Shown here: positions 15,640 through 18,400 of the stretch, in pieces
Numbering within the stretch: position 1 is the first letter of the stretch
How the letters are laid out: every line of letters begins with the position of its first letter
Source: an uncultured Acidimicrobiales bacterium
Lineage (GTDB): Bacteria; Actinomycetota; Acidimicrobiia; Acidimicrobiales; SZUA-35
DNA length: 64,000 nt
Assembly: GCA_938029215.1 (NCBI GenBank)
Contig: CALHFG010000051.1
Coordinates: forward strand, 36,541-100,540
Direction of reading: 5' to 3'
Notes under the pieces: generated by a model
Databases searched by the model: none
What the model was told of the DNA's origin: nothing
The model's input: the letters and a program-made list of their open reading frames with translations, nothing else
Made by a program: the position numbers and the translations under genes

Positions 15640-16530
15640 TCAGAGGGCCACCGCAATGCTGGCCGCCACGGATGCGTTCGACTCCGCAAGCGCAAGGTTG
15701 GTGGCGATGCTTGCGCCGTCGGTGAGTCGGGAGATCTCTGCCAACACCAGAGGCGTGATCGCAGGCCCAGTGACGTTTTGGTCCGAGGCCGCCCCCAGCG
15801 CGGAGTCCACTGCCTCTTCGAGCACGTCAGACTCGATAGCAGCATCTTCGGGGACTGGATTGACGACCAGCACCCCGCCGCCCCCAAGATCCCAGTGGGC
15901 TCGGGCAATAGCCGCAATTTCTTCGGCCGAATCGACCCGGTGTGGCACCGGTAACCCGGAAGATCTGGCATAGAAAGCCGGGAACTCATCGGTTTGGAAA
16001 CCGAGAACAGGGACCGAGCTCGTTTCTAGAAACTCCAAGGTGCGAGCAAGATCGAGGAACACCTTGGCACCCGACGCGACCGTGATGACCTGATGCACCG
16101 ACAACGCCTTGAGATCAGCGCTCACGTCCATCGATTCGCCGACGTCTCTATGGACACCGCCGAGGCCCCCGGTGGCGAACACGCGCAGCCGAGCTGCCGC
16201 GGCTAGTGCGACCGAGGCCGAAACGGTAGTCGCCCCATAGCTCCAGCCCTGGGCGACGGCGACTGCGATATCACGTTCGGCTACTTTGCGCGCCGGGCCA
16301 CAGATTTGGTCATAGAACGCTTCTTCAACGCCAACGACGGCCGCACCGTTGAGCACAGCGGTGAGCGCGGGCTCAGCTCCCCCGGCCCGTATTGCGGCGT
16401 TGCACCGAGCGAGGGCCTCAGTATTGGCGGGGCTTGGAAGGCCCAAGTTCGAGAAGATGGTGGACTCCATCGCCACGGGCGAAGCCCCGGAAGCCATAGC
16501 ATCGGCCAGGCCCTCACCGATTTGGATCAA
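15640..16530 (-). CDS. psuG: Pseudouridine-5'-phosphate glycosidase
   Basis: 296 residues. PsuG cleaves the C-C glycosidic bond of pseudouridine 5'-phosphate to uracil and ribose 5-phosphate. Family blocks present: 'AMESTIFSNLGLP', 'GWSYGATTVSASVALAA', 'FATGGLGGVHR', 'DLKALSVHQVITVASGAK' and 'NLALAESNASVAASIA' near the C-terminus. The start is TTG, sharing bases with the stop of the upstream flavodoxin gene (TTGA overlap), so translation is coupled. The usual partner, the PfkB-type kinase PsuK, is not adjacent. Confidence 0.93.
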   Translation of the reverse strand: MIQIGEGLADAMASGASPVAMESTIFSNLGLPSPANTEALARCNAAIRAGGAEPALTAVLNGAAVVGVEEAFYDQICGPARKVAERDIAVAVAQGWSYGATTVSASVALAAAARLRVFATGGLGGVHRDVGESMDVSADLKALSVHQVITVASGAKVFLDLARTLEFLETSSVPVLGFQTDEFPAFYARSSGLPVPHRVDSAEEIAAIARAHWDLGGGGVLVVNPVPEDAAIESDVLEEAVDSALGAASDQNVTGPAITPLVLAEISRLTDGASIATNLALAESNASVAASIAVAL

Positions 16531-16967
16531 CGGGAGACCAAGGTCTGCACGTCGCCAGCGCCCATGAGCCGATCGACGAATTCTGAGGCACCGCCCACCA
16601 GATCGCTTCGCTTGATAGCTGCTCCACCGACGACATCGCCGCCGCGCCGCTCAACGATTGCCTGGAGCTTGTCGAGGACCTTGCCGGGATCGGTGGCATA
16701 GGTGCAGTAGACCGCGGTCTTCTTCCCGTCGATCACCGGCAGTTTCGCGACCTTCCAGGGACGTCCGGGGCGTTGACCAAAGAAGAACAAGCCGTCAACC
16801 CACGTTCCAACAACGACGAGATCGGAGTCGCTCAGCCACTGGAGATCGGCGCGGTCGATTGCGCAGGCCTTGGCGTCGACGCCTGAGGCGCGCAACTCTG
16901 CGGCAATAAGGTTTCCTGCGTCACGGGTGTTGCCGGTGACGGACTCGTACAGAACGGTGGCCTTCAT
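16527..16967 (-). CDS. Flavodoxin-fold protein
   Basis: 146 residues. It starts with the FMN phosphate-binding signature 'VLYESVTGNTRDAGNLIA' and keeps the flavodoxin beta-alpha pattern ('DSDLVVVGTWVDGLFFFG', then 'GKKTAVYCTYA'). Likely a small FMN electron carrier or a flavodoxin-like oxidoreductase subunit. It is the first gene of a two-gene operon with psuG, and its leaderless-type -10 overlaps that of the divergent mazG gene. The functional link to pseudouridine breakdown is unclear. Confidence 0.85.
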   Translation of the reverse strand: MKATVLYESVTGNTRDAGNLIAAELRASGVDAKACAIDRADLQWLSDSDLVVVGTWVDGLFFFGQRPGRPWKVAKLPVIDGKKTAVYCTYATDPGKVLDKLQAIVERRGGDVVGGAAIKRSDLVGGASEFVDRLMGAGDVQTLVSR

Positions 16968-16990: not shown

Positions 16991-17242
16991 ATGCAGATAG
17001 CCGAGTTCCAACAGCTTATGGATGACCTGTACGGCGAGGCTGACCGGGAGCGGGGAATTTCTGCAACGGTCGCGTGGCTGTGCGAGGAACTTGGTGAGCT
17101 CGCTCAAGCGGTGAGAAAAGGAACCGTCGACGACCAACTGCATGAGCTCGGCGACGTTTTGGCCTGGACCGCCTCGCTCGCCAACCAGCTCGATCTGTCA
17201 CTCACCGACGCCGCTCATCGGTACGTCACCGATCCGCCGTAA
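16991..17242 (+). CDS. MazG-like nucleotide pyrophosphohydrolase
   Basis: 83 residues. The Mg-binding pattern of all-alpha NTP pyrophosphatases is present: 'WLCEELGELAQAVRKG' (EExxE) and then 'HELGDVLAWTASLANQLD' (ExxD). Such enzymes convert noncanonical NTPs to NMP and PPi. It is slightly shorter than usual (~95-110), ending in 'RYVTDPP' and lacking the Cys-containing tail often seen after the 'RY' motif. First gene of a cluster with the selenoprotein (22-bp gap) and the SpoU methyltransferase. Confidence 0.85.
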   Translation: MQIAEFQQLMDDLYGEADRERGISATVAWLCEELGELAQAVRKGTVDDQLHELGDVLAWTASLANQLDLSLTDAAHRYVTDPP

Positions 17243-17252
17243 CCGCCCGCGA

Positions 17253-17264
17253 TAGGCTGTTCAG
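17253..17264 (+). promoter_or_regulatory. Leaderless-type -10 box of selenoprotein gene
   Basis: TAGGCT (17253-17258), six bases, ATG 17265. It supports the upstream ATG as the true start and therefore readthrough of the UGA codon. Confidence 0.55.
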
Positions 17265-17540
17265 ATGTCTTCCGAGCGATACCGAGTGTCAATTACCTAC
17301 TGCGTCCCTTGAGACTATTCGGGTCACGCCGTGAGCGCGACTGCAGACATTCTCTCCAACTACCAGCATGTGATCGACGATCTGTCTCTCAAGACCGGCG
17401 GAGCTGGCGTGTTCGATGTGACCGTGAACGATCAGCTGATCTATAGCAAAGACGAAACCGGCCGCCATGCCGAGCCCGGTGAGGTGCTGCGCCTCTTTCA
17501 AGGCGTGGTTGGGCCAGACGTGCCCCTCTACGGCACCTAA
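17265..17540 (+). CDS. SelW/SelT/SelH-like (Rdx family) selenoprotein with in-frame UGA
   Basis: The ORF track shows only 17331-17540, but the frame is open from ATG 17265 to TAA 17540 except for one TGA at codon 16 (17310-17312). Reading it as selenocysteine gives 91 residues with the redox motif 'YCVPU' (CxxU) exactly where Rdx proteins carry CxxC or CxxU. The rest of the family signature follows: 'GAGVFDVTVNDQLIYSKDE' and 'TGRHAEPGEVL'. The protein has a thioredoxin-like fold and presumably does thiol/selenol redox work in the cytosol. A SECIS-like hairpin follows the UGA. The product should require SelA, SelB, SelC and SelD, none of which is in this window. The alternative, a nonsense mutation of CxxC, is unlikely given the intact downstream frame and the position of the UGA. 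Confidence 0.88.
17321..17344 (+). promoter_or_regulatory. Candidate bacterial SECIS hairpin
   Basis: Hand fold: GTCACGC (17323-17329) pairs with GCGCGAC (17335-17341) with one A-C mismatch. The apical loop is CGUGA (17330-17334), with G in second position followed by U. A G-U pair and a possible G-C pair extend the base. The loop begins 17 bases after the UGA, within the spacing reported for bacterial SECIS elements (about 16-37). Not checked by folding software. Confidence 0.5.
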
Positions 17541-17572: not shown

Positions 17573-18400
17573 TTGTTTGAACACTGGGTTCGGATAGATG
17601 ACCCTCAGGATCCGCGGATCGCAGTCTTCCAGGGGCTCCGGGATCACCAGCTCCGTCAGCTGCGAGAGGCCGACGGCGGCGACATGGAAGGGGTCTTTGT
17701 AGGCGAAGGCGATCTGGTGGTTGAGCGCGCCCTCGAGGCGGGCTATCAGCTCCACTCGATTCTTGTCGACGGGGCCCGCACGAAACCGATTCCAGATCGG
17801 ATCGAACAAGACGCTCCGCCCATCTATGCCGCGGCACCAAACGTTCTGCAACACATCACCGGCTATCACCTCCATCGAGGCCTATTGGCGTGCTTTCGAC
17901 GCCGGCCCCTGATGTCAGCCGACGATGTTCTTGCAGGCGCCGCAACGCTGATCGTCCTCGAGGGCATCAACAACCCCACCAATCTCGGCGTCATCCTCCG
18001 GTGTGGCGTAGCGCTAGGTGTGGATGCATTCGTGATGGACAACACCTGCAGCGATCCTCTGTACCGACGAGCCGGAAGGGTCAGCATGGGCGAGGCCTAT
18101 CGACTCCCGTACGCTCGATTGGGCAGTTTTCCCGAAGATCTGGAGCAGATCCATGCCGCCGGTTTCACCACGCTGGCACTAACGCCGGGCGGCGAGGTGG
18201 ACATTGGCGAGCTGTCCTTTGCGCCAGATCAGAAGGTTGCGCTCGTGCTCGGAAGCGAGGGCCCCGGGTTAGGTGACGGGACGATCGCCGCCTGTTCCAT
18301 CCGAACTCGAATCCCCATGAGCGGCGCCGTCGACAGTCTCAACGTTGGGTCCGCTGCCTCCGTTGCCTTCTACGCCATCCAGCAAAGTCGCAAACGCTAG
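17573..18400 (+). CDS. SpoU/TrmH-family RNA 2'-O-methyltransferase
   Basis: 275 residues. The N-terminal substrate-binding domain ('GVFVGEGDLVVERAL', residues ~40-54) precedes a SPOUT knot domain. All three signature motifs are present: 'LEGINNPTNLGVILR', 'LVLGSEGPGL' and 'IPMSGAVDSLNVGSAASVA'. It should methylate a ribose in tRNA or rRNA using S-adenosylmethionine; which site is unknown. The only start that keeps the substrate domain is TTG 17573, with GGGAAG nine bases upstream. It follows the selenoprotein by 32 bp. Its last 132 bp overlap the 3' end of the opposite-strand PNPOx-like gene. Confidence 0.92.
   Translation: MFEHWVRIDDPQDPRIAVFQGLRDHQLRQLREADGGDMEGVFVGEGDLVVERALEAGYQLHSILVDGARTKPIPDRIEQDAPPIYAAAPNVLQHITGYHLHRGLLACFRRRPLMSADDVLAGAATLIVLEGINNPTNLGVILRCGVALGVDAFVMDNTCSDPLYRRAGRVSMGEAYRLPYARLGSFPEDLEQIHAAGFTTLALTPGGEVDIGELSFAPDQKVALVLGSEGPGLGDGTIAACSIRTRIPMSGAVDSLNVGSAASVAFYAIQQSRKR

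Follow-up and report, generated by a model that had tools for sequence, protein, structure and literature searches.

A predicted selenocysteine-containing SelW-like protein of an uncultured Acidimicrobiales bacterium

The selW-like gene and its fold

The window, a stretch of 64,000 nucleotides from an uncultured Acidimicrobiales bacterium, carries a short gene (Table 1) in which the start codon ATG (17265-17267), a TGA at codon 16 (17310-17312) and the terminator TAA (17538-17540) are read directly in the same frame. If the TGA is taken as selenocysteine (Sec), the product has 91 residues, with 75 codons after the UGA and the motif YCVPU at the redox site of the Rdx family. The initial annotation had described this frame, with a single TGA in place of the second redox residue of the CxxC/CxxU motif, and had stated that a standard ORF caller truncates the gene by starting after the UGA; every checkable detail of the frame is correct, and the mechanical caller indeed gives only the 69-residue ORF from GTG 17331, a false start inside the SECIS loop.

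Table 1. Features of the selW-like locus in the window
Feature	Position	Strand	Basis
-10-like element TAGGCT of a putative leaderless promoter	17253-17258	+	read directly; TANNNT conserved in homologues
selW-like gene (Rdx family), 91 aa, predicted Sec at residue 16	17265-17540, including TAA	+	read directly; domain match; conserved TGA; AlphaFold2 SelW fold
Redox motif Cys13-Val-Pro-Sec16 (TGC GTC CCT TGA)	17301-17312	+	Cys13 and position 16 invariant in the 52-sequence alignment
In-frame UGA, predicted to be read as selenocysteine	17310-17312	+	TGA in 104/104 loci of the order; Cys aligned in other Actinomycetota
Putative SECIS hairpin (arms 17322-17329 and 17335-17342, loop CGUGA 17330-17334)	17322-17342	+	fold, covariation, frozen synonymous codons
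Truncated ORF with GTG start, 69 aa, as called by a standard caller	17331-17540	+	mechanical ORF calling

The Rdx domain that the annotation had placed in the 75 codons downstream of the UGA is recognized by PF10262 (1.6e-16, residues 7-77; 60.7 bits against a cut-off of 22.6) and by TIGR02174, CXXU_selWTH (46.1 bits against a curated cut-off of 34.2). With a domain above the curated cut-off and a CxxC/CxxU motif that ends the first strand, the protein belongs to the Rdx/SelW-like family. The best NCBIfam match is the Campylobacter SelT/W/H model NF041051 (6.2e-19), but its 68 bits are below the 88-bit equivalog cut-off, and the protein is not a SelTWH_Campy member.

The AlphaFold2 model, built from 52 sequences, has a pLDDT of 95.9, and its best PDB matches in Foldseek are SelW-related proteins, including 2fa8 (E 2.8e-8), 2obk and 3dex. 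Cys13 and residue 16 follow the strand formed by residues 6-13 in the model. Both are invariant in the 52-sequence alignment, as are Tyr18, Gly48, Ser61, Lys62 and Glu73, among others. The Cys-type Rdx protein SAV_2001 of Streptomyces avermitilis (PDB 3dex) has the same fold, with a query TM score of 0.78-0.81 and 32-33% identity in its best Foldseek rows. The position of the CxxC/CxxU motif is common to the window protein and its Cys-type relatives in Actinomycetota; these relatives, such as SAV_2001, have Cys at the second redox position and no UGA, while the window protein is predicted to have Sec there.

The TAGGCT element ends exactly six bases 5′ of the ATG. Among homologues, a TANNNT motif that ends 4-9 nt before the ATG is found in 70 of 97, against 3.3 expected from shuffles, in agreement with the leaderless-type -10 proposed earlier. 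Since this element is conserved and Shine-Dalgarno-like motifs are only weakly enriched in the homologues (18 against 11 expected), a leaderless mRNA is probably the rule in the selW clade. The surroundings of the gene are less constant. A flavodoxin-like gene on the reverse strand (16527-16967) lies upstream of selW and is adjacent in 19 of 104 loci, and a TrmH/SpoU-like methyltransferase gene on the forward strand (17573-18400) lies downstream and is adjacent in 18 of 104; both are kept in the near family only. A short MazG-like ORF (16991-17242, forward strand) just 5′ of selW stands beside selW in one other locus, L051. Because no operon is conserved across the order, no function is drawn from these neighbours.

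Conservation of the UGA codon and the downstream hairpin

A homologue is present in 85 of the 298 genomes searched in the order Acidimicrobiales, and the in-frame TGA is found in all 85. At the level of loci, all 104 that were read carry TGA where the alignment places residue 16, and not one has a Cys codon there, even though the query had C at residue 16, so that the search favoured Cys forms. The 104 loci come from two collections, with some loci counted twice, and represent 100 distinct sequences around the UGA; single-contig genomes are among them. Such uniformity means that the placement of the TGA is not due to chance. Purifying selection acts on both sides of the UGA within the gene's own family (pN/pS 0.37 upstream and 0.41 downstream). 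As judged from this codon, the data show the SelW family to be strictly Sec-retaining across the order, a predicted Sec-only clade.

Cys in homologues at the position of a candidate Sec codon is the classical test for Sec. In the wider phylum, 56 of 397 genomes have a match and Sec forms predominate, but Cys forms occur in other lineages of Actinomycetota (L182, L183, L185, L186, L188-L190, L198 and L199), and the U of the window protein aligns with the Cys of these Rdx proteins, which answers the alignment check proposed in the initial annotation. With an in-frame UGA that is aligned with the Cys of homologues and kept across species, the gene has the features of a bacterial selenoprotein gene. 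TAG or TAA codons in four phylum hits were considered as alternative Sec codons and rejected, as they are ordinary terminators inside the profile tail.

The hairpin that follows the UGA has a stem of seven pairs with one A-C mismatch, a spacing of 17 nt from the UGA to the loop and a folding energy of -8.5 to -12.4 kcal/mol. The window sequence by itself is no more stable than its shuffles (-12.4 kcal/mol, z -0.40; z -0.59 in a separate test), so the assignment as a SECIS element rests on comparative evidence. The constraints given for bacterial SECIS elements (PMC13188914) are satisfied by 91 of 100 homologues. When the homologues are clustered at 80% identity, the 50 representatives have pairing in 84.7% of cells, against 78.9% after shuffling, and both partners are changed in 30 cells, where shuffles give 13.4. 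For covariation, the score of 0.332 (0.234 when shuffled) is not reached in any of 500 shuffles, and all slid registers score far below the true one. Among single pairs, the association of columns 17/29 (A2) alone is not significant in the 50 representatives (p 0.22), while the neighbouring pair, 16/30, does show a significant one (p 0.0004).

The codons in the hairpin are frozen as well: Ala is GCC in 47 of 48 cases, Val is GTG in 42 of 50 and Ser is AGC in 31 of 32, whereas further downstream in the same genes these codons make up 56%, 38% and 16%, respectively. Relative to codon-usage nulls, the folding energy is lowest along the gene exactly at the hairpin window (mean z -1.0). When synonymous codons are shuffled among sequences, most of the pairing remains (0.855 against 0.811 for six pairs), because there is little variation in pairing from sequence to sequence, and the tests relied on here are those of covariation and codon usage. 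Covariation and frozen codons together uphold the SECIS-like hairpin that had been noted after the UGA. In a divergent SelW branch (L107, L113, L115-L118, L120, L121, L123 and L124), the loop is GGUCU and the hairpin is shifted by about five bases; this loop presumably resembles that of E. coli fdhF.

Selenocysteine machinery and the reading of the UGA

The genome from which the window derives is a 3.94 Mb draft of 144 contigs, 94.6% complete, and its near relatives at the protein level are metagenome-assembled genomes of Acidimicrobiales. The four genes that the initial annotation had proposed to look for, selA, selB, selC (tRNA-Sec) and selD, are all present above their cut-offs and together constitute a bacterial selenoprotein machinery: selA directly precedes selB on contig C46, the tRNA-Sec has a UCA anticodon (TCA in DNA), and the selD domain lies within a 727-residue ORF. 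In this ORF (L019, 304-2487), SelD has Cys at its usual Sec/Cys site, and the N-terminal half, as judged by eye, appears to be a fused pyridine-nucleotide oxidoreductase-like domain. This arrangement agrees with the Ndh-SelD fusion described in ocean metagenomes (PMC2398784).

Across the order, selA is found in 83 of the 85 SelW-bearing genomes and in 96 of the 213 without SelW (Fisher 1.7e-20, a guide only, as the genomes are related); the two SelW-bearing genomes with no selA match are both fragmented, with 520 and 630 contigs. The source genome also contains at least seven further redox genes with in-frame TGA, at least eight with selW. In FdhA, a formate dehydrogenase alpha-type protein, the TGA coincides with the classical Sec site, CNRTUHAPSV (L174, 1741-1743, contig C26), and six peroxiredoxin/TlpA-like genes (L201, L203, L204, L205, L206 and L207) have it at redox sites with the motifs TPGU, DWUPYC, APWUPTC, IHULPC, ASWUGC and APWUPFU, the last of which is a UxxU form; a PF13462 profile search gave no match. 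With FdhA and these six genes, the source cell thus appears to be a rich user of Sec. The view that selenoproteins are sporadic in actinobacteria does not hold for this order, in which selA is above the cut-off in 175 of 298 genomes.

We conclude, with a probability of about 0.97, that the product of the gene is a SelW-like protein of the Rdx family with selenocysteine, as the initial annotation had proposed; the complete machinery, the invariant TGA, the co-occurrence with selA, the SECIS covariation and the alignment with Cys all support this reading. In a draft assembly of 144 contigs, a lone stop codon within a short frame is often an error, and the TGA could in principle be a sequencing error or the mark of a pseudogene, a decayed copy of a Cys-type SelW. 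However, the same codon is TGA in every homologous locus, single-contig genomes included, selection continues downstream of it and the SECIS covaries, so that this explanation, already refuted by the comparative data, has a negligible probability. It is likewise scarcely credible that the functional product is the ORF from GTG 17331, with the preceding region not translated as part of it. A standard caller does report this ORF, but it would be without the first strand and the entire redox motif; the codons before the UGA are under selection, with Cys13 invariant, the -10 element is positioned for the upstream ATG, and the GTG is part of the SECIS loop, where it is fixed for RNA reasons.

The identity of the inserted residue cannot be told from sequence alone, and the UGA might be passed without Sec, either by generic stop readthrough or by recoding of UGA, for example as Trp. 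The same machinery, selA co-occurrence and covarying SECIS, together with the Cys to which the codon aligns in other Actinomycetota, make this very unlikely, and since TGA is an ordinary terminator in many of the homologues, the code is not reassigned.

Under the Sec reading, transcription would most likely begin at the ATG of 17265 or right beside it, as suggested by the conserved -10 element, and give a leaderless mRNA. When the ribosome arrives at the UGA of codon 16, SelB-GTP, loaded with Sec-tRNA-Sec and anchored to the hairpin 17 nt downstream, would insert Sec, a step suggested by the gene set together with the covarying SECIS and the conserved frame. Without selenium, translation would stop after 15 residues. 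The full product is modelled as a thioredoxin-like Rdx fold in which the Cys13-x-x-Sec16 pair lies where the first strand ends. In Rdx/SelW proteins, such a Cys-Sec pair should reversibly form a selenenylsulfide and act in thiol-based redox chemistry. From its family and motif, the product is probably a thiol/selenol oxidoreductase with a selenenylsulfide in its catalytic cycle.

A probable UxxU form in a sister genus and the place of the family

In one sister genus, of which 22 genomes were searched and 20 have SelW, TGA occurs at both redox positions (YUVPU) in 16 of the 20 SelW-bearing genomes, while four have YCVPU. The YUVPU loci are L074, L087, L088, L092-L095, L127, L129, L131-L133, L135, L136, L138 and L141, and two of the 16 genomes are single-contig. 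In these genes selection maintains the leaderless start and the residues that precede the first UGA, with pN/pS 0.38 before it and 0.28 after. The two UGAs are 26 and 17 nt from the same SECIS loop, both within 16-37 nt, and a single origin is consistent with the tree (94% of bootstrap trees). There is good reason to believe that the first redox Cys was changed to Sec in this genus, apparently in a single gain, so that one SECIS on a leaderless mRNA would serve two UGAs nine bases apart and yield a diselenide (UxxU) Rdx protein.

Bacterial SelW-like Sec proteins, which the initial annotation had mentioned as known from marine bacteria, rank among the most common selenoproteins of marine environments (PMC1088965, PMC2398784). 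The kind is already known, and the gene in the window adds another member to it, similar to bacterial SELENOW-like selenoproteins in fold, in the CxxU motif and in the SECIS just after the UGA. It differs from them in its Acidimicrobiales host and its apparently leaderless mRNA, and in having a UxxU form in a sister genus. A 2026 review (PMC13188914) gives SELENOW-like proteins (PF10262) as CxxU with one Sec only and lists UxxU in other families only; the UxxU Rdx form, in the sister-genus loci outside the window, therefore looks new for the SELENOW-like family. Our literature search found no paper devoted to the selenoproteins of Acidimicrobiia.

ORF callers truncate the gene, with a naive start in the SECIS loop, so that annotations of Acidimicrobiales probably overlook SelW-like proteins or give them without the active site. 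The distribution of selA points to Acidimicrobiales as a selenium-using order. What the gene offers beyond the known kind is its place in a predicted order-wide Sec-only clade with a UxxU sister form. Sister species with CxxU and UxxU would provide a clean natural contrast for the effect of the second Sec and for the use of one SECIS by two nearby UGAs.
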